Assembly (NCBI GenBank): GCA_022793145.1
Contig: JAAWCI010000035.1
Coordinates: 1 to 6,870, forward strand
Direction: 5' to 3'
Length of the DNA stretch: 6,870 nt
Source: Bacilli bacterium
Lineage (GTDB): Bacteria > Bacillota_I > Bacilli_A > RF39 > UBA660
Position 1 is the first letter of the stretch, and each line of letters starts with the position of its first letter. Below the pieces are notes generated by a model. It did no database searches, was not told where the DNA came from, and was given only the letters and a program-made list of their open reading frames with translations. This document shows positions 1 to 6,870 of the stretch, piece by piece. The position numbers were made by a program, and so were the translations under genes.

Positions 1-69
1 ATGACCGTTTTTAGGTAATATAAGGTCGTTCTTACATTTCTATTATAATACATTTCATATAAAATTAAA

Positions 70-98
70 AGACTGTTCTACATATTTGTCAACAGTCT
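70..98 (+). other. 8-bp inverted repeat upstream of the terminator
   Basis: Arms AGACTGTT (70-77) and AACAGTCT (91-98) are perfect complements around a 13-base loop. Read on the + strand it lies just before the terminator hairpin at 101-131. Read on the - strand it is followed by TTTTAATTTT, so it could also stop leftward transcription. The TTCTAC at 76-81 is complementary to GTAGAA at 106-111 in the left arm of the next hairpin, so an alternative pairing is possible. Its function is unknown. It probably belongs to the 3' end of a transcript from left of the window. Confidence 0.5.
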
Positions 99-100
99 GG

Positions 101-131
101 AGCAAGTAGAATTTTCTGCTTGCTTTTTTTT
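101..131 (+). terminator. Intrinsic terminator upstream of gene 1
   Basis: A 10-bp stem (AGCAAGTAGA, 101-110, with TCTGCTTGCT, 115-124; one G-U pair) closes a 4-base loop and runs into an uninterrupted T tract (124-131). This is a classic rho-independent terminator on the + strand. It most likely ends a gene left of the window. It could instead act as an attenuator if transcription begins near the TATAAT at 44-49. Confidence 0.8.
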
Positions 132-218
132 AGGCTGATTTAATTACTGCTAAATAGCTAAATATTATCAATATAAATAGTAATAAAAAAATTTATGGTA
201 TTATTGAGATATATTTAG

Positions 219-224
219 TATAAT
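219..224 (+). promoter_or_regulatory. Candidate -10 box for the NERD-HRDC gene
   Basis: A perfect TATAAT lies 46 bases before the gene 1 start and downstream of the terminator at 101-131. No good -35 box sits 16-18 bases upstream (the sequence there is TGGTAT-like), and the region is so A+T-rich that TATAAT-like words are common. The call rests on position between a terminator and a good ribosome binding site. Confidence 0.4.
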
Positions 225-255
225 AGTATTATTATAAAATAAATTATATTAATAA

Positions 256-263
256 AAAGGGAG
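256..263 (+). promoter_or_regulatory. Ribosome binding site of gene 1
   Basis: AAAGGGAG is followed by 7 bases and the ATG at 271. This supports that ATG as the start of the NERD-HRDC gene. Confidence 0.75.
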
Positions 264-270
264 TAGTATT

Positions 271-1350
271 ATGTCTAAGTATAGAAAAAATTATTATAGA
301 AAAGAGCCATCAGTAGATGATGAAATATTAGGCATTATTAGTATTTTTATATTTTTGATTTTATTTCAATATTGGCAATATGTTTTAGCTATTTTTGGGA
401 TATTAATATTGTTTAAATTAATTATCTGGGTTCACGATAAAGATTTATTTTCTCAATTTAAAAATAGCAAATTATACTATCATGGAGAAAGTGGTAAAAA
501 ATATTTAGATAAGCTAGAGCAAGAAAAATATGAAAGTGACCGAACTCAGTATAATATTAATTGCTTAAAAAAAGGTCAATATGGTGAGAGCAAAATATTA
601 TATACCTTATTACATATGCAAAATGTTCCAATGTATATTATTTATGATATTAGATTGCAATATAGAGATTTTAAAGCACAAATAGATTTTATTGCTGTTA
701 CGAAAAGGATGATTTATATTATAGAAGCAAAAGATTTAAATGGTAATCTTGATATTGAAGGAGATGGAACTTTTACAAGAATTTTTGGAAGAAAAAAAAG
801 TGGAATGAAAAATCCATTAACTCAGAATAATGATCATGAAAAAGTAGTGAAGGCGATTTTGAAAAATGAAAAAATAAAGACTGTCGTTACGTCTTTAGTT
901 GTGCTAACAAATGATGATAGTCATATTCATTTTAAACATGGAGCAAATGAATATAAAAATAAAATTTTTAGAAATGATAAATTAGAAGAAAATTTAATAA
1001 AAATGGAACAGAAAAAACATATTGTAAGGCAAGAAGAAAGAATACAATATATTTGTGATACTTTATTAAAATATAGAATAGAAGATATAAAAACTGCTGA
1101 TATTCAAAAAGAAGATGTTGATGCAATTATAGTGAAATTAAAAGCATATCGTAAAAAAATGTCAGAAGTAGAAAATGTTCCTGCATATATGATTTTTAAT
1201 GATAATACAATATTAGATTTGATTCAGAAAAAGCCTGCCTCAATGGAGGAATTAACCAATATTGTAGGGCTTGGTGAATATAAGGTAAATAAATATGGGC
1301 AAAACATATTGAATATTATGAATAATCAAAAAAACAAAAATAAAAATTGA
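271..1350 (+). CDS. Membrane-anchored NERD and HRDC domain protein
   Basis: The 359-residue protein begins with a short basic stretch and a hydrophobic block at about 19-54, long enough for two membrane passes split near Q33-Q37. A NERD (nuclease-related) domain covers about 100-215. Its expected acidic and basic positions are visible: G105-E106 in KGQYGES, D139 in AQIDF, and the E152-x-K154 signature in IEAKDLNG. These match the core of the restriction-endonuclease-like fold. A charged linker with many Lys and Glu follows (about 230-285). Residues about 287-350 look like an HRDC domain, with VPAYMIFND, a helix, then GLGEYKVNKYG; this nucleic-acid-binding module is best known from RecQ helicases and RNase D. 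The tail is Asn/Lys-rich. From family knowledge I infer a membrane-tethered, probably cytoplasm-facing DNA- or RNA-processing protein. Its substrate is not known. It is a single-gene unit with its own -10, ribosome binding site and downstream terminator. The putative catalytic residues are intact. Confidence 0.88.
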   Translation: MSKYRKNYYRKEPSVDDEILGIISIFIFLILFQYWQYVLAIFGILILFKLIIWVHDKDLFSQFKNSKLYYHGESGKKYLDKLEQEKYESDRTQYNINCLKKGQYGESKILYTLLHMQNVPMYIIYDIRLQYRDFKAQIDFIAVTKRMIYIIEAKDLNGNLDIEGDGTFTRIFGRKKSGMKNPLTQNNDHEKVVKAILKNEKIKTVVTSLVVLTNDDSHIHFKHGANEYKNKIFRNDKLEENLIKMEQKKHIVRQEERIQYICDTLLKYRIEDIKTADIQKEDVDAIIVKLKAYRKKMSEVENVPAYMIFNDNTILDLIQKKPASMEELTNIVGLGEYKVNKYGQNILNIMNNQKNKNKN

Positions 1351-1400
1351 TATACTTGTTAAGTAGAACTATTATTTTTGAAATATACTTAAAATAAAAT

Positions 1401-1428
1401 GTCTTTAGTTTGTAACTAAGACTTTTTT
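1401..1428 (+). terminator. Intrinsic terminator after the NERD-HRDC gene
   Basis: GTCTTTAGTT (1401-1410) pairs with AACTAAGAC (1414-1422) as a 9-bp stem with one bulged T and a tight 3-base loop, followed by six Ts (1423-1428). It separates gene 1 from the SDR operon. Its T tract occupies the place where the -35 box of the next promoter would be. Confidence 0.8.
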
Positions 1429-1442
1429 AATATTTTTATATT

Positions 1443-1451
1443 TGTTATAAT
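1443..1451 (+). promoter_or_regulatory. Extended -10 promoter of the SDR-ynbB operon
   Basis: TGTTATAAT is a perfect extended -10 (TG, one base, TATAAT). The region 17 bases upstream is the poly-T of the preceding terminator and not a TTGACA-like box, so promoter strength would depend on the TG extension. Transcription would begin near 1458, giving a leader of only about 20 bases that just includes the ribosome binding site. Confidence 0.6.
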
Positions 1452-1465
1452 ATAGAAAGAAAAAC

Positions 1466-1469
1466 GGAG
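1466..1469 (+). promoter_or_regulatory. Ribosome binding site of the SDR gene
   Basis: GGAG (in AACGGAGT) is followed by 8 bases and the ATG at 1478. This fixes the start just before the Rossmann-fold beta strand, as expected for this family. Confidence 0.75.
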
Positions 1470-1477
1470 TTGATCAT

Positions 1478-2218
1478 ATGGACAAAAAAGTAGTATTAGT
1501 AACAGGTGGAAGCAAAGGAATAGGAGCAGCGACAGTAGAGGTTTTTGCAAAGCACAATTATAATATTGTATTAAATTATGCTCATGATGAAGAAGTGGCA
1601 AAAGCCGTAAAGGATAGAATAGAATTAACCTATTCTGTATCAGTATTATTAGCAAAAGCAGATGTGTCAAAAAAAGAAGATGTTCAAAATATGGTAGAAA
1701 TGGCAATTCAAACATTTGGTCATATTGATGTACTGGTTAACAATGCGGGAATTGCAATCGACCAAACATTTGAAGATAAAACCGATTTTGAATTTAGAAA
1801 AGTGTTAGATGTAAATTTAATTGGACCATTTTTAATGTCTAAAGAAGTTGGTAAAAGAATGCAAGAGCAAGGACATGGAAAAATTATTAATGTAAGTTCT
1901 ACAAATGCAATTGATACACTTTATCCTGAAAGTATGGATTATGATGCCTCAAAAGCAGGTTTAATTTCATTAACAAGAAATTTAGCTACAACTTTTGCGC
2001 CGATAATCCAAGTAAATGCAGTAGCTCCAGGATGGGTAAATACAGAAATGAATAAGGAATTAGATGTAGAATTTGTAAAAGAAGAGGAACAAAAAATTTT
2101 ATTAGGAAGGTTTGCAGATCCTTCTGAAATAGCTTCTGTCATTTACTTTTTGACAACGAAAGAAGCGGGTTATATTAATGGAACTGTTATTCGCATAGAT
2201 GGTGGGTGGAATGCATGA
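1478..2218 (+). CDS. ymfI: SDR-family reductase, probable EF-P 5-aminopentanone reductase (YmfI-like)
   Basis: This is a complete classical short-chain dehydrogenase/reductase of 246 residues, the usual length. The nucleotide-binding loop TGGSKGIG is at 9-16, D62 sits in ADVS, NNAG is at 88-91, and N113 is the structural or catalytic Asn. The catalytic Ser is S141 in NVSS, with Y155-xxx-K159 in YDASK, then APGWVNTEM at 183-191 and the C-terminal DGGW. K13 in the glycine loop and the absence of an acidic residue at the end of strand 2 (LNY, 32-34) suggest NADPH use. By sequence alone it could be called FabG. However, no fatty-acid-synthesis gene is nearby, and its stop codon overlaps the start of a ynbB homologue. 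In Bacillus subtilis YmfI, an SDR, reduces the ketone intermediate of the EF-P Lys modification, and YnbB acts in the same pathway. I therefore infer the YmfI role; the SDR assignment itself is near certain, the specific substrate is not. Confidence 0.85.
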   Translation: MDKKVVLVTGGSKGIGAATVEVFAKHNYNIVLNYAHDEEVAKAVKDRIELTYSVSVLLAKADVSKKEDVQNMVEMAIQTFGHIDVLVNNAGIAIDQTFEDKTDFEFRKVLDVNLIGPFLMSKEVGKRMQEQGHGKIINVSSTNAIDTLYPESMDYDASKAGLISLTRNLATTFAPIIQVNAVAPGWVNTEMNKELDVEFVKEEEQKILLGRFADPSEIASVIYFLTTKEAGYINGTVIRIDGGWNA

Positions 2219-3459
2219 TAAAAACAAAAGAGCAGCTTCAAGAACTAGTAGACAGAGTAGAACAAAAAATAGAACCAGAAATAAAAAGAATAGAACAACA
2301 GTGTGAAAAAAACAGTAAAAAAGTATTAACTGCATTTCAGAATAATCAAATTACAGAAGCACATTTTGGAAGTACTTCAGGATATGGATATGATGATATG
2401 GGAAGGGATGCTTTAGAACGGGTCTTTGGTGAAATTCTAGATGCCGAAGATGCACTAGTTAGAGCACAGATGATTTCAGGAAGTCATGCCCTTACTGTAA
2501 CCTTATTTGCGCTTCTAAGGCCTAATGATATTTTACTCAGTATTACTGGAAAACCATATGATACATTAGATGAAGTAATTGGAATAACTGAAAATGATAG
2601 TTCATTAAAATCTTTTGGCGTTCAATATGAGCAAATTGATTTGGTAGACAACGATTTTGATTATGCAAAAATAGAAGAATTATTAACACAAAAGAAAATA
2701 AAAGTAATTGAAATTCAGCGTTCTAAAGGATATTCTACTAGAAAAAGTATTACGATAGAAAAAGTAGAAAAAGTAATTAAAGTAATAAAACAAGTTTCAC
2801 CAAACACGATTATTATGGTAGATAATTGCTATTGTGAAATGGTATCTGATAAAGAACCAACAACTGTTGGCGCAGACATTATGGTAGGATCTTTAATTAA
2901 AAATTTAGGTGGAGGAATTGCTCCAAATGGCGCCTATATTGCAGGAAAAAAAGATTTAATCAAATTATGTGCAGAAAGATTAACGCTTCCAGGAGAGGGA
3001 AGAGAAGTAGGCCCTACACTTGGAATCAACAAATCGCTTTATCAAGGACTCTTTTTCGCACCATCTGTAGTAGCAGCCTCTTTAAAAACAGCTGTTTTTA
3101 CAAGTGCTCTTTTAGAAGAATTGGGTTATGTTGTAGAACCAAAATGGGATGAAAAACGAGCTGATATCGTAGAAAATATTATATTTGGAAATTCAGAAAA
3201 TTTAATCAAATATTGCCAAGGAATTCAGATGGGATCTCCAATCGATTCTAATGCGGTACCAGAGCCATGGGATATGCCAGGATATCAAGACAAAGTAATT
3301 ATGGCAGCAGGAGCCTTTACACAAGGATCTTCTATAGAACTTTCTTGTGATGGCCCAATGCGAGAACCATTTATAGCTTATCAACAAGGTGGACTTACGT
3401 ATGAATATGGAAAACTAGGAGTTATAAAAGCCATAGAAAAATTATTAAATATCAAATAA
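2215..3459 (+). CDS. ynbB: PLP-dependent YnbB family protein (methionine gamma-lyase/aluminium resistance family, PF06838)
   Basis: The 414-residue protein has a fold-type I PLP-enzyme layout. The family signature near the N-terminus is HFGSTSGYGYDDMGRD (50-65). SGSHA (88-92) probably forms the cofactor phosphate-binding turn, D203 in MVDNCYCE should hold the pyridine nitrogen, and K229 in GSLIKNLGGG is the expected Schiff-base lysine. The C-terminal part carries the family-typical DMPGYQDKVIMAAGAFTQGS (353-372). Older annotation calls this family aluminium resistance protein or methionine gamma-lyase family. In Bacillus subtilis YnbB is required for the 5-aminopentanol modification of EF-P, though its exact reaction is not, to my knowledge, settled. 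I chose the ATG at 2215 because it forms an ATGA overlap with the SDR stop, with a weak GGTGGGTGG stretch at 2201-2209 as ribosome binding site; a GTG at 2206 would add three residues. Translation is probably coupled to the upstream reductase. A terminator follows directly. Confidence 0.92.
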   Translation: MIKTKEQLQELVDRVEQKIEPEIKRIEQQCEKNSKKVLTAFQNNQITEAHFGSTSGYGYDDMGRDALERVFGEILDAEDALVRAQMISGSHALTVTLFALLRPNDILLSITGKPYDTLDEVIGITENDSSLKSFGVQYEQIDLVDNDFDYAKIEELLTQKKIKVIEIQRSKGYSTRKSITIEKVEKVIKVIKQVSPNTIIMVDNCYCEMVSDKEPTTVGADIMVGSLIKNLGGGIAPNGAYIAGKKDLIKLCAERLTLPGEGREVGPTLGINKSLYQGLFFAPSVVAASLKTAVFTSALLEELGYVVEPKWDEKRADIVENIIFGNSENLIKYCQGIQMGSPIDSNAVPEPWDMPGYQDKVIMAAGAFTQGSSIELSCDGPMREPFIAYQQGGLTYEYGKLGVIKAIEKLLNIK

Positions 3460-3466
3460 TGGTTAT

Positions 3467-3493
3467 AAAGAAGGGACAATCTCTTCTTTTTTT
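3467..3493 (+). terminator. Intrinsic terminator of the SDR-ynbB operon
   Basis: AAAGAAGGGA (3467-3476) pairs with TCTCTTCTTT (3480-3489) with one G-U pair and a 3-base loop, ending in a run of seven Ts (3487-3493). It begins 8 bases after the ynbB stop and separates the operon from the deacetylase gene. Confidence 0.85.
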
Positions 3494-3506
3494 ATATTGC
3501 CTTTCA

Positions 3507-3512
3507 TATAGT
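3507..3512 (+). promoter_or_regulatory. Weak candidate -10 for the deacetylase gene
   Basis: TATAGT (5 of 6 to TATAAT) lies 14 bases after the terminator T tract and 20 bases before the start codon. There is no TG extension and the -35 position falls in the terminator's right arm (TTCTTT). A start near 3519 would leave almost no leader before the GAGGTG. Read-through from the previous operon is an alternative. Confidence 0.25.
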
Positions 3513-3520
3513 GAAATGAA

Positions 3521-3526
3521 GAGGTG
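3521..3526 (+). promoter_or_regulatory. Ribosome binding site that sets the deacetylase start
   Basis: GAGGTG is followed by 6 bases and an ATG at 3533. An in-frame GTG at 3524 lies inside this motif, so it cannot be the start if the motif is the ribosome binding site. ATG 3533 is preferred. Confidence 0.75.
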
Positions 3527-3532
3527 TCACGA

Positions 3533-4621
3533 ATGGAACAAAAACATAAAAGAATTATTTTAGGAATTACGTTTTTAATTTTTCTTTCTATTATCTTTAT
3601 ATGTTATCAAACTATATCAAAGAATGAAAAGAAAACAAATAAAGCAAAACAGGAAACATTAGCATTCACCTTAAAAGGTCAAAGTATGGTGACTATAAAA
3701 GTAGGAGAAAAGTATCAAGAACCAGGATATGAAGCTATAGACAAAGAAGAAGGAAATATCACCAGTAAAGTTTCTGTAAAAAGTACTTTAAATATTGACA
3801 TTCCAGGAACTTATCAAATTACATATACCATTACAAATAAAAAAGGAAATAAAAAAGAACTAAAAAGATTCGTAACAGTAGAAGGTAATAAAATTGTGAA
3901 ATATAAGGATGCTTATGACAACATTGATAATACACATAAAACATGGTGGAGTGGTAATAAAAAAGATCATACAAGACCAGTAGATGGTGCGGGAAATAAA
4001 GAAGATGTATTGAAGCAATATGGAGCCTATTATATGGGACCAGACGAAAAAATCATTTATTTAACCTTTGATGAAGGAAGTAATGATACTTATACCGAAG
4101 AAATTGTAGATGTTCTAAATGAAAATGATGTAAAAGCAACTTTCTTTTTCTGTAAAGGATTTATGAAAAATAATCCAGAATTAATGAAAAAAATAGCTCA
4201 GTCTGGTCATTCTGTTGGAAATCATACAGCCAATCATTATTCCATGCCTACTTTAGCAACTCGTACAAACTTCCAAAAATATTTAAATGAGATAGAAGAA
4301 AACGAAAAAGTATTTAAAGAAATAACTGGAGTAGAAATGGATAAAGTGTATAGAGAACCAAAAGGAGAATATAGTTATAGAAGTTTACAAATTGTTCACG
4401 ACTTAGGGTATAAATCATACTTTTGGAGTGCAGATCATTATGATTTTGACTATGATGTATCAAAAGAAAAAGCATTTAGCGAATTAGAAAAAAGGTATCA
4501 CAATGGTGCGATATATTTGCTACATCCAAAAAACAGAGGCAATTATGAAGCGATGGATAGTTTTATTAAACATATGAAAAATTTAGGATATACATTTGGA
4601 CTTGTCAGAGATATTCAGTAA
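3533..4621 (+). CDS. Membrane-anchored PdaA-like polysaccharide deacetylase with Ig-like (DUF5011-type) domain
   Basis: The protein has 362 residues. MEQKHKR and a hydrophobic helix (about 8-26) form an uncleaved signal anchor, so the rest should lie outside the membrane. Residues about 45-117 form an Ig-like DUF5011-type domain, with IKVGEKYQEPGYEAID and later DIPGTYQITYTITNKKGN. A NodB-type deacetylase domain covers about 170-360. Its motifs are TFDEGSND (178-185, D180 as base), GHSVGNHTANH with metal-ligand histidines H231 and H235, YREPKGEYS (273-281), FWSADHYD with W298 (297-304) and LLHPKNRGN with H331 (329-337). The acidic residue after the catalytic Asp is Glu instead of Asp, and the EYS in motif 3 matches the PdaA subgroup more than chitin deacetylases. 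PdaA removes the acetyl group from muramic acid in peptidoglycan, a step to muramic-delta-lactam in spore cortex. The substrate here is inferred to be peptidoglycan, but no spore gene is in view. It is flanked by terminators and is probably its own unit. Confidence 0.9.
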   Translation: MEQKHKRIILGITFLIFLSIIFICYQTISKNEKKTNKAKQETLAFTLKGQSMVTIKVGEKYQEPGYEAIDKEEGNITSKVSVKSTLNIDIPGTYQITYTITNKKGNKKELKRFVTVEGNKIVKYKDAYDNIDNTHKTWWSGNKKDHTRPVDGAGNKEDVLKQYGAYYMGPDEKIIYLTFDEGSNDTYTEEIVDVLNENDVKATFFFCKGFMKNNPELMKKIAQSGHSVGNHTANHYSMPTLATRTNFQKYLNEIEENEKVFKEITGVEMDKVYREPKGEYSYRSLQIVHDLGYKSYFWSADHYDFDYDVSKEKAFSELEKRYHNGAIYLLHPKNRGNYEAMDSFIKHMKNLGYTFGLVRDIQ

Positions 4622-4654
4622 AGAGAACTGTAAACTAAAACGTTCTCTTTTTTT
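4620..4654 (+). terminator. Intrinsic terminator of the deacetylase gene, overlapping its stop codon
   Basis: AAAGAGAAC (4620-4628) pairs perfectly with GTTCTCTTT (4642-4650), with an A-rich loop that can gain two more pairs (GT/AC), and seven Ts follow (4648-4654). The left arm begins inside the TAA stop. Confidence 0.85.
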
Positions 4655-4669
4655 ACTTTTCTTATTTTG

Positions 4670-4678
4670 TGTTATACT
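4670..4678 (+). promoter_or_regulatory. Extended -10 promoter of the InlB-repeat/BIG2 gene
   Basis: TGTTATACT carries the TG extension and TATACT (5 of 6). As at the SDR operon, the -35 region falls in the terminator's poly-T and has no good TTGACA match. The expected start near 4685 leaves about 20 bases of leader. Confidence 0.5.
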
Positions 4679-4690
4679 AATAATAGAATA

Positions 4691-4696
4691 AAGGAG
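4691..4696 (+). promoter_or_regulatory. Ribosome binding site of the InlB-repeat/BIG2 gene
   Basis: AAGGAG is an almost complete anti-16S match, 9 bases before the ATG at 4706. It is the strongest ribosome binding site in the window. Confidence 0.8.
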
Positions 4697-4705
4697 TGTT
4701 CTTAA

Positions 4706-6751
4706 ATGAATGTGAAAGATTTTTTAGAACCAATTCAAGACATGTGGAAACAATATAAGAAGCCATTTTTATTTGGAATTGCTATATTGGCTGGCATATT
4801 AATTTTTATATCTGTTTTATCTACTGTTACTTCAGCAATTGATAAAGCAATGGCTGTTTATGTAGAAGTTACTTTTAATACGAATGGTGGAACGATTATT
4901 AATCCAGCAAAAGTGAGAAAAGGAAGAAAATTAGACGATAATATAAAAACAGAAAAGCCAGGATTTGAATTTAAAGGTTGGGAATATGAAGGAGAAATTC
5001 TGGATATAACCAAACCAATAAAAAAAGATATGATGTTACATGCCAAATGGGAAAAAACAGGTGCAACTTTAGTCCATACTGTGACTTTTGAAACTTATGG
5101 AGGAACAACAATAGATCCAATTGAAGTAAGTCAAGGGAGAACATTCACTAAACCATTAAATCCAGAGAAAAAAGGTTATAAATTTTTAGGTTGGTATTTA
5201 GGAGAAGAAGCATATAACTTTATGAAAACTGCGGTTTCTAGTGATGTCACTTTAAAGGCAAAATGGGAAAGAATTGATCCTATTATCTTTACAGAAAAAG
5301 ATTTAGCAAGAAGTACATCTTTATATGAAGAGCTTTCTGGAATTTGGTATTTAAAAGAATATGAAGATATCTACATTACATTTACAGAAGAGAATAATGG
5401 ATTTGATGAGACATGGTATTTCTTGAAATGGTATAATATTGACTTGTTGGGAAATTGCAAACTTTATATAAGAGGAAATTATCAGAGAACGTTTGCTACA
5501 GAAAAGGCAGAATTTTATCAAAAAATAGCACAATTTCATTTTGAATTAAAAAATGGAGAGTTAGTCATGGAGAATCATGGCAAAGAATATGTGTTTACCA
5601 AGACACAAGGCTCAAAGAATCGTTATACAGATACTATTTATGAACATTCTGTGGGAAGATGGTTTTTAGAAAACTCTTATAGTTCTTATATTGATATTAC
5701 ATCAGAAAAAGCCAAAGATGTTTTGGATTATGATACCTATTGTATTAATACGACAAATATTAATCTGGGTACTCTACAATTAGGTTCTTCTATGGAATAT
5801 GGTTGTAGAAAAGCCTATGATGATTCATTATTTAAAAATTTGAAAATTAAAATTGATAATGATGTTATAACGATTGAAAATGAATATGGTGTAAAACATT
5901 TTACTCTCAACAGGGTTGCAGAAATCGGAACTGTAACTGGTGTAAAATTAGATAAAGTGGGTGTCGTATTAGAAAATGGAAGAAAAGTTACATTATCAGC
6001 AACTGTTATGCCAAGAGAAGCAAATAATACAAAAGTGGTTTGGGAAACTTCAGATGCAAGCATCGCTACAGTTGAGGGAAATCCAAACATCATTACAACG
6101 AGTGCAGATGGTGTTCGTTATTCTGCCACGGTAACAGCAAAAAAGGCAGGAACAGCAACAATTACTGTTCGAACAGTAGATGGTAATCATATTGCGACTA
6201 GTAAAATCACAGTTCCAGAAGTTGCGGTGGCTGCAATTAGCTTAAATAAAAGAGAAACAACAATATATGTAGGAAACTTTGAGCAATTAAAAGCAATCAT
6301 TACTCCTTCTAATGCTTCTAATCAAAAACTTTCTTGGTCAAGTTCAAACTCAGAAGTTGCCTCTGTTAATGGCAATGGTCAGGTGGAAGGAATCAAAGAA
6401 GGAAAAACTACAATTACTGTATCAACAGAAGATGGCTCAAAAAAAGCAACTTGTGTAGTAAATGTAAAATATATTACATTAAATGTTGTTACAGCAATGA
6501 CATATACCAGAAAGTCATTAAATGGAAATTATGTAAATGGTGTGAATGTAAATGTGACCCCTTCAGGTGGAAGTGGTAGTTATACTAGTTATCAAATTAA
6601 ATTGTATTATAATCATAGCTTGGTAAAAGAAAGTACTACATCAGAACTTTTTTATCCGACTGAATTGAAAGGCAATTATTATGCAGAAATTACAGTGATT
6701 GATTCAGAGGGACATAAGAGTGTTACTACTAAAGAATATATTAAAAATTAA
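4706..6751 (+). CDS. Exported or membrane-anchored multidomain protein: InlB B-repeats, duplicated G-x-W domain, BIG2 domains
   Basis: The 681-residue protein starts with a short cytoplasmic segment and one hydrophobic helix (about 21-41). AMA at 48-50 could be a signal peptidase site, so it is either anchored or secreted. Two InlB B-repeats (about 53-116 and 123-188) show TFxTxGGT, the KPGFEFKGW / KKGYKFLGW core and the closing LHAKW / LKAKW. Residues about 207-404 hold two diverged copies of a domain I do not recognise, each opening with YE, G-x-W and an aromatic residue, and ending in ENxxGxxxFT-like or MENHGKEYVFT strands. The G-x-W opening recalls lipocalin-like barrels. Two BIG2 Ig domains follow (about 408-503 and 509-587), then a beta-rich C-terminal domain (about 590-678) with TPSGGSGSYTSYQ and VIDSEGHKS, similar in style to PKD or Ig folds. 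There is no LPXTG motif and no enzyme motif. By analogy it is a surface adhesion or scaffold protein; the ligand is unknown. It follows the deacetylase gene but has its own promoter and terminator. Confidence 0.88.
   Translation: MNVKDFLEPIQDMWKQYKKPFLFGIAILAGILIFISVLSTVTSAIDKAMAVYVEVTFNTNGGTIINPAKVRKGRKLDDNIKTEKPGFEFKGWEYEGEILDITKPIKKDMMLHAKWEKTGATLVHTVTFETYGGTTIDPIEVSQGRTFTKPLNPEKKGYKFLGWYLGEEAYNFMKTAVSSDVTLKAKWERIDPIIFTEKDLARSTSLYEELSGIWYLKEYEDIYITFTEENNGFDETWYFLKWYNIDLLGNCKLYIRGNYQRTFATEKAEFYQKIAQFHFELKNGELVMENHGKEYVFTKTQGSKNRYTDTIYEHSVGRWFLENSYSSYIDITSEKAKDVLDYDTYCINTTNINLGTLQLGSSMEYGCRKAYDDSLFKNLKIKIDNDVITIENEYGVKHFTLNRVAEIGTVTGVKLDKVGVVLENGRKVTLSATVMPREANNTKVVWETSDASIATVEGNPNIITTSADGVRYSATVTAKKAGTATITVRTVDGNHIATSKITVPEVAVAAISLNKRETTIYVGNFEQLKAIITPSNASNQKLSWSSSNSEVASVNGNGQVEGIKEGKTTITVSTEDGSKKATCVVNVKYITLNVVTAMTYTRKSLNGNYVNGVNVNVTPSGGSGSYTSYQIKLYYNHSLVKESTTSELFYPTELKGNYYAEITVIDSEGHKSVTTKEYIKN
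4862..5269 (+). repeat. Two tandem InlB B-repeat coding units
   Basis: Units at 4862-5053 and 5072-5269 encode about 65-residue repeats sharing V-x-V/T-TF, GGT, G-R, a Gly-aromatic-F-x-GW core and a terminal AKWE. They are similar in protein but clearly diverged in DNA, so this is an old duplication. InlB B-repeats (Listeria-Bacteroides repeat family) are common in surface proteins of Firmicutes. Confidence 0.85.
5324..5914 (+). repeat. Tandem duplication of an unrecognised G-x-W beta domain
   Basis: Units at about 5324-5602 (residues 207-299) and 5636-5914 (residues 311-403) can be aligned by eye. Both open YE..(S/V)G-x-W-(Y/F)-L, then have Y-I-x-(F/I)-T, later a Leu-Gly stretch with CKL or TLQL, then an N-G/D-E/V-hydrophobic strand with EN and (Y/G)-V-(F/K)-x-F/T ends. 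Identity is low. No known family is assigned with confidence; a lipocalin-like barrel is possible. Confidence 0.55.
5927..6466 (+). repeat. Two tandem BIG2 (bacterial Ig-like) coding units
   Basis: Units at about 5927-6214 and 6230-6466 encode the BIG2 pattern: V/I-x-L-(D/N)-K, a Leu-x-A-x-(V/I)-x-P-x-(E/N)-A strand, the V-x-W-x-(T/S)-S-(D/N) core, (I/V)-A-(T/S)-V, and AGTATITV / EGKTTITV near the end. The first copy has an insert at about residues 457-471. Confidence 0.88.
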
Positions 6752-6785
6752 GTGGTATATTTGATTAAATATACTGCTTTTTTTT
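6751..6785 (+). terminator. Intrinsic terminator of the InlB-repeat/BIG2 gene
   Basis: AGTGGTATATTT (6751-6762) pairs with AAATATACTGCT (6767-6778), 12 bp with two G-U pairs, around the loop GATT, then eight Ts (6778-6785). It begins at the last base of the stop codon. Confidence 0.85.
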
Positions 6786-6836
6786 ATAACTAAAATCTTT
6801 TTTATTATAAAATTTAATAATAAATGAATATATGTA

Positions 6837-6850
6837 TCAAAACGGTTACA
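6837..6850 (+). promoter_or_regulatory. cre-like / LacI-family operator-like sequence
   Basis: TCAAAACGGTTACA matches the catabolite-responsive-element consensus TGWAANCGNTNWCA at every position except the second (C for G). It lies in the non-coding tail of the window, where it could serve a gene to the right. One such near-match in a window of this size could arise by chance, and overlapping TGTA (6833-6836) and TACA (6847-6850) half-sites would fit another regulator. Confidence 0.25.
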
Positions 6851-6870
6851 AAATAAAGATAGAAAAAAAG

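Follow-up and report, generated by a model that had tools for sequence, protein, structure and literature searches.

A conserved pair of reductase and ynbB genes as a probable stand-alone module for elongation factor P modification

Elongation factor P (EF-P) helps ribosomes through runs of prolines. Whether a modification of this factor could be served by a unit of only two genes is the question raised by a stretch of 6,870 nucleotides from a Bacilli bacterium (assembly GCA_022793145.1, contig JAAWCI010000035.1, positions 1 to 6,870; this whole stretch is called the window), in which the gene of a short-chain dehydrogenase/reductase (SDR) overlaps ynbB, the gene of a pyridoxal phosphate (PLP) enzyme. 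In Bacillus subtilis, according to the available text of PMC5885033, ynbB, gsaB and ymfI are strictly required for EF-P modification, yaaO, yfkA and ywlG are helpers, and YmfI reduces 5-aminopentanone; the YmfI work of Hummels 2017 is drawn upon here as it is related in the available parts of PMC5885033 and PMC11381351. It was found that the SDR-ynbB pair is a conserved unit and that its tie to EF-P is supported by genome context. The pair probably represents a stand-alone EF-P modification module that involves neither GsaB nor fatty acid synthesis. No description of an SDR-ynbB or efp-SDR-ynbB unit was found in the titles and abstract beginnings listed by searches of the open-access literature.

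Conservation of the pair and its link to EF-P

The elements of the pair, in window positions, are the following.

1401-1422: weaker hairpin upstream of the SDR gene, -5.6 kcal/mol, z -1.9
1446..1451, + strand: TATAAT, possible -10 element upstream of the SDR gene, read by eye and weak, not flagged by the consensus scan
1465..1469, + strand: CGGAG, likely ribosome binding site of the SDR gene, read by eye, 8 bases ahead of the ATG
1478..2218, + strand: SDR carbonyl reductase, 246 aa, C-terminal RIDGGWNA (open reading frame (ORF), Pfam PF13561/PF00106, NCBIfam)
2205..2210, + strand: purine-rich GGTGGA within the 3' end of the SDR gene, possible ribosome binding site of ynbB, judged from the sequence
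2215..2218, + strand: ATGA overlap of the ynbB ATG (2215-2217) and the SDR TGA (2216-2218), from the ORF reading
2215..3459, + strand: YnbB-family PLP enzyme, 414 aa, PF06838 (Pfam, 574 bits)
3467..3489, + strand: intrinsic terminator-like hairpin, 10-bp stem followed by a U-run, -9.4 kcal/mol, z -3.9

The overlap of the SDR stop and the ynbB start as ATGA, described in an initial annotation of the sequence, is confirmed by the ORF coordinates, and the two genes may be translationally coupled through it. The single terminator claimed there is borne out by the hairpin behind ynbB. The single promoter is not, as a consensus scan returned 9 sites against 11.4 expected in shuffled sequences, no support above chance. 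Because a terminator hairpin follows ynbB and a weaker hairpin precedes the SDR gene, the pair is plausibly a separate unit.

The pair also occurs in other genomes. In the nearest locus found (L001 of genome G001, a metagenome-assembled genome (MAG) titled 'uncultured Tenericutes'), YnbB is 85% and the SDR 80% identical to the window proteins, and the gene order SDR-ynbB-deacetylase-repeat protein is the same as in the window. YnbB similarity was used to fetch 80 loci, and in 46 of them an SDR gene precedes ynbB on the same strand at a distance of up to 700 bp; by mechanical ORF calls, the two genes overlap in 33 of these linked loci, lie within 40 bp in 7 and have 431-591 bp between them in 6. 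Beyond the 46, an SDR gene is situated 1.4-2.5 kb upstream of ynbB in L041 and L055. A wider search covered 288 genomes of the taxonomic order to which G001 belongs, and its adjacency counts refer to the rows listed (149 genomes for YnbB, 145 for the SDR and 150 for EF-P). SDR and YnbB rows are both listed for 105 genomes. The SDR is directly upstream in 77 of these, less than 150 bp separating the two matches; 16 have a gap of 0.2-0.64 kb, 3 a gap of 1.4-1.5 kb, and 9 have the SDR elsewhere or on another contig.

Across all 288 genomes, YnbB passes its cut-off in 232 and the profile of linked SDRs is matched at 1e-65 or better in 197. Both are present in 195 genomes, YnbB only in 37, the SDR subfamily only in 2 and neither in 54 (Fisher p 3e-31, kinship ignored). 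A third gene recurs in at most 14 of the 46 linked loci, several of which are short, so that conservation is confined to the two-gene unit. The SDR-ynbB pair is therefore a conserved unit, and the adjacency of its genes is not due to chance.

The tie to EF-P is provided by the efp gene itself. The genes efp, SDR and ynbB are contiguous and co-oriented in 8 genomes (L028/G013, L208/G058, L209/G170, L210/G249, L230/G061, L231/G103, L232/G204 and L233/G193); in L028 they occupy 2467-3024, 3090-3848 and 3851-5080 of one strand. G013, in which this cluster was first seen, shares its taxonomic order with G001. In 5 further genomes efp lies within about 4 kb of the pair, so that 13 are linked in all. 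The order is SDR-ynbB-rpmG-efp in L211 and ynbB-efp in L212, where the contig stops before any SDR. It is SDR-ynbB-efp with an interposed gene like that of a penicillin-binding protein (by eye) in L213 and L214, the latter with one extra ORF, and in L215 efp is divergent from SDR-ynbB. SDR and EF-P rows are both listed for 79 genomes; efp is directly upstream on the same strand in 8 of these and within about 4 kb in 12. Of the 81 for which YnbB and EF-P rows are listed, 9 have both within 3 kb. Random placement would put efp directly upstream in about 0.04 genomes, as against 8 observed (1,100 genes assumed, kinship ignored).

A YnbB tree, which was made quickly and contains many weak branches, requires no fewer than 6 changes of the efp-linked state, whether or not loci with short flanks are scored, and no fewer than 4 changes of the state 'efp directly upstream'. 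One inherited accident is thus an unlikely explanation of the linkage. As efp clusters with SDR-ynbB or with ynbB in 13 genomes, the EF-P link proposed in the initial annotation gains independent support; the clustering is a genome-context tie of YnbB to EF-P that does not depend on B. subtilis.

EF-P (PF08207) was found in 275 of the 288 genomes of the order, and in 43 of a mixed set of 50 genomes. This set was drawn from the 80 fetched loci, of which 30 were left out, and comprises 42 genomes with an SDR at or near ynbB (1.4 kb away in L041) and 8 with none seen (the upstream stretch being masked in one, L038). The motif PGKG is present in each of the 66 distinct EF-P sequences of the fetched loci, also in those from clostridia (51 PGKGA, 14 PGKGS and 1 PGKGP). 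The lysine expected at the modified loop is likewise present in the closest relative examined, G001, with the loop HVKPGKGAAFVK (KPGKGAA). The corresponding loop of L028 is VVEFQHVKPGKGSAFVR; the S. aureus EF-P peptide that carries 5-aminopentanol in the available text of PMC7327921 is VIDFQHVKPGKGSAFVR.

Several further features of the ynbB neighbourhood were observed. It was considered that efp might fill the 0.5-kb gap between SDR and ynbB in some loci, and this was rejected, the gap being occupied by a different protein of 146-170 aa. This protein belongs to no Pfam family (L019 5550-5999, L021 5535-6014, L045 5493-5933, L063 2446-2949, L075 4230-4742 and L080 5399-5881), and its structural model, of moderate confidence (mean pLDDT 75), matched nothing in the PDB at an E-value of 0.001 or below. 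Fetched loci outside the SDR-linked set are mostly titled Clostridia. Where ynbB has no adjacent SDR (34 loci, among them L003, L005, L009, L025, L042, L048 and L062), a flavoprotein gene stands near it, usually downstream, in 31 (one tested: TIGR00275), and a gene like that of methylthioadenosine/S-adenosylhomocysteine (MTA/SAH) nucleosidase in 8 (in L003, 73.0 bits on TIGR01704, cut-off 73.8). A nucleosidase gene that overlaps ynbB in L155 of the order set scores 96.6 bits, over the same cut-off. It is possible that these nucleosidase genes hint at an adenosyl-type substrate.

Identity of the two enzymes

The window YnbB is a full-length member of PF06838, matched across model positions 2-404 of 405. 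Its nearest solved structures belong to the same family (3gwp/3i16, 3hvy, described as 'YNBB B.subtilis ortholog', and 3jzl). The names attached to PF06838, methionine gamma-lyase and aluminium resistance, are no evidence of a lyase function. Unlike methionine gamma-lyases, YnbB lies far under the cut-off of their model TIGR01328 (37 bits against 549.7).

The window SDR passes no cut-off among the 25 NCBIfam families shown, which include all FabG models there. Its best single model is the general FabG model TIGR01830 (212.3 bits, cut-off 297.75), and its best PDB sequence match, 2uvd, is also a FabG; with FabG it shares the SDR fold common to both proteins. On the model of YmfI, the EF-P 5-aminopentanone reductase (NF047420), it reaches 180.4 bits against a cut-off of 238. 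It resembles YmfI in length and in its active-site residues N113, S141, Y155 and K159, presumably the catalytic residues of SDRs, which are invariant in 20 aligned ynbB-linked SDRs. It differs from YmfI in score, in its separate clade and, by eye, in one extra residue ahead of the catalytic Tyr. Score alone was rejected as a criterion between YmfI and FabG: clostridial FabG proteins encoded beside FabF reach 232-246 bits on the YmfI model. In G001, another SDR outscores the linked one on this model (185 against 170.5 bits), and none of the 42 SDR-linked genomes contains a protein over its cut-off. Class-wide, the YmfI model was matched at 1e-70 in 1 of 395 genomes, with B. subtilis as positive control; this threshold would miss weaker relatives such as L121 (7.6e-60).

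An SDR tree was built from 82 of 130 sequences of at least 200 aa, after removal of identical rows, those more than 75% alike and one distant row. A single group (SH-aLRT 98) contains every ynbB-adjacent SDR in the tree and a small number of non-adjacent ones. The YmfI-model proteins form a separate group (100), and FabG proteins encoded beside FabF in Clostridia form another (99). The YmfI-model clade comprises six rows from clostridial genomes and L121, the second SDR of linked genome G017; the tree as a whole is without Bacillus or Staphylococcus YmfI. A named YmfI was sought among the homologues; in the 120 matches listed from 8000, one is named ('3-oxoacyl-ACP reductase FabG', Clostridiaceae). 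The best tree thus gives no grouping with FabG. In topology tests, forcing the linked SDRs to join FabG (p-AU 0.43) or YmfI (p-AU 0.18) was rejected in neither case.

Judged by sequence, the ynbB-adjacent SDRs form a subfamily of their own, and the linked SDR would be the natural candidate for the work of YmfI in this lineage. The window SDR is like the clostridial YmfI-model proteins in carrying GGW near its C-terminus; among 69 distinct ynbB-adjacent SDRs, this motif occurs only in the window SDR and L153. A subtype of linked SDR with an altered C-terminus was seen in some loci (L039, L078, L149 and L170).

A possible two-enzyme route and its alternatives

The other genes of the B. subtilis pathway were sought in relatives of the window genome, from which all pathway gene counts come. 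The GsaB/HemL model exceeds its cut-off in none of the 288 genomes of the order (5 weak matches, 103-124 bits). At 1e-20 it gave 4 matches in the mixed set, 3 of which come from the 42 linked genomes; all 4 stay below the cut-off. Because GsaB is 48% identical to HemL (available text of PMC6522883), it should not escape the HemL model at this threshold. Two weak matches, L113 and L237, were considered as hidden GsaB and rejected, both being diaminobutyrate transaminases; a third, L111 of G044, is glutamate-1-semialdehyde aminomutase-like, and no SDR is seen next to ynbB in G044. YwlG (PF04260) and YfkAB (PF08756) were each found in 0 of the 50 genomes, and YaaO (PF01276) in 1 of the 41 searched from the same set (36 linked and 5 others), the B. 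subtilis control being positive for all three. FabF, the sole gene of type II fatty acid synthesis (FASII) searched, was found in 0 of the 42 linked genomes and in 4 of the 8 others. Incompleteness of MAGs is no explanation for absence from all or nearly all relatives.

The proposal that the 5-aminopentanol pathway extends to this lineage therefore went too far. The likeness to B. subtilis 5-aminopentanolylation consists of a YnbB-family enzyme, a reductase of the YmfI fold and, in the relatives, an EF-P with a lysine in the PGKG loop. The differences are a distinct SDR subfamily, overlapping genes that are sometimes clustered with efp, and the failure to find GsaB and nearly all helpers in the relatives or FabF in the linked ones.

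As GsaB seems to be lacking, YnbB and the SDR may catalyse consecutive steps, as the initial annotation suggested. YnbB would build or attach a small keto group on the EF-P loop lysine (Lys32 in B. subtilis numbering), and the SDR would then reduce its carbonyl with NAD(P)H, the counterpart of the YmfI job in B. subtilis. We infer this chemistry and step order, as well as the translational coupling and the likeness of the window genome to its relatives. The cell's own FASII would be an unlikely source of the carbon unit, given the absence of FabF from the linked genomes. In the available text of PMC5885033, fatty acid synthesis was considered as a model or source of the modification, and the manipulations of it made there were without effect. 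A lineage that has YnbB and a reductase near efp, and in which neither GsaB nor FabF was found, argues against FASII as the source. It is tentatively suggested that the two-enzyme route, free of GsaB and independent of FASII, yields a product without the terminal amine of 5-aminopentanol. Candidates would be, for example, the reduced forms of two intermediates known from B. subtilis, pentenone (calculated shift about +84.058 Da) and hydroxypentanone (about +102.068 Da). If true, an amine-free product would add one more chemical class to the modifications of bacterial EF-P. Neither the chemistry of the individual steps nor the carbon source of the YnbB-dependent modification is settled, and this lineage narrows the problem to two enzymes.

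Several observations weigh against a stand-alone EF-P module. The window SDR stays under the YmfI cut-off, and neither forced topology was rejected. L121 lies inside the YmfI-model clade at 201.8 bits, itself under the cut-off of 238, so the YmfI job could lie elsewhere in G017. In most genomes listed, G001 included, efp is not beside the pair, and the presence of YnbB is only weakly associated with that of EF-P (7 genomes with YnbB and no EF-P match, 50 with EF-P and no YnbB, p 0.02). The 37 genomes among 232 with YnbB that lack the SDR subfamily at the 1e-65 threshold point the same way, as does G049 (L048), in which YnbB and EF-P are present and no SDR matches the YmfI model at 1e-20. Moreover, the joint absence of SDR and YnbB is inflated by incomplete MAGs and by adjacency itself, one assembly gap removing both genes. 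Members of the SDR subfamily also occur away from ynbB, in L131 (G003), L222 (G044) and L234 (1596-2342, G188), and some of the subfamily may thus have another role. The SDR of L234 adjoins a fumarylacetoacetase-like protein (by eye).

The EF-P link would be kept if the ordinary 5-aminopentanol pathway were at work. In that case an unrelated aminotransferase would stand in for GsaB, the SDR would be a diverged YmfI, and the product would be that of B. subtilis. This explanation is possible, although short of probable. The EF-P loop of the relatives is of the aminopentanolated type, as the comparison of L028 with S. aureus illustrates, and the tree joining linked SDRs with YmfI was not rejected. 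Six clostridial genomes over the YmfI cut-off (G043-G047 and G050) have, except for G044, no GsaB/HemL-like match at 1e-20, which indicates that GsaB may be replaceable. However, GsaB is strictly required in B. subtilis, no genome of the order passes the HemL cut-off, and the named weak matches L113 and L237 are transaminases of another kind. No further gene is conserved beside the pair, and the class-wide count of 1 in 395 for the YmfI model, with the weaker relatives it misses, also speaks against this pathway.

Explanations that leave EF-P aside are far less probable. YnbB could be a carbon-sulfur lyase or aluminium-resistance enzyme whose released small keto compound is reduced by the SDR, in agreement with the Pfam and PDB family names and with the flavoprotein (31) and nucleosidase-like (8) genes near ynbB in the 34 loci where no SDR adjoins it. 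Such a metabolic pair is improbable in view of the very low score of YnbB on methionine gamma-lyase models, its repeated clustering with efp and the genetics that link it to EF-P in B. subtilis (available text of PMC5885033). Still more improbable is an SDR that serves fatty acid synthesis as a FabG-type 3-oxoacyl-ACP reductase and stands beside ynbB by accident. The highest model score, the PDB match and the unrejected tree with FabG agree with it. A FabG role of the window SDR is nevertheless unlikely, because FabF was found in none of the 42 linked genomes and the SDR is under all FabG cut-offs shown; in addition, of the 197 genomes with the SDR subfamily, 195 also contain ynbB, the gene of the SDR is placed with ynbB, and FabF-adjacent clostridial FabG is a separate clade. 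Of the earlier prediction that the SDR is the YmfI counterpart and not FabG, the second part is thus likely to hold, whereas its score and its separate clade give no support for identifying it as the YmfI orthologue.

Neighbouring genes in the window

The window contains five genes, all on the + strand. Apart from the pair, these are the following.

271-1350, + strand: protein with a NERD nuclease-like domain and an HRDC domain (Pfam), with a hydrophobic N-terminal segment by eye
3533-4621, + strand: PdaA-like polysaccharide deacetylase with a Bact_surface_Ig-like domain ahead of it (NCBIfam/Pfam)
4706-6751, + strand: large surface-type repeat protein with two Listeria-Bacteroides repeats and two Big_2 domains (Pfam)

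The NERD/HRDC protein of the window shows weak matches to the DpdF and PglW defence models. Homologues of it are also situated upstream of SDR-ynbB in L043, L047, L052, L057 and L074.

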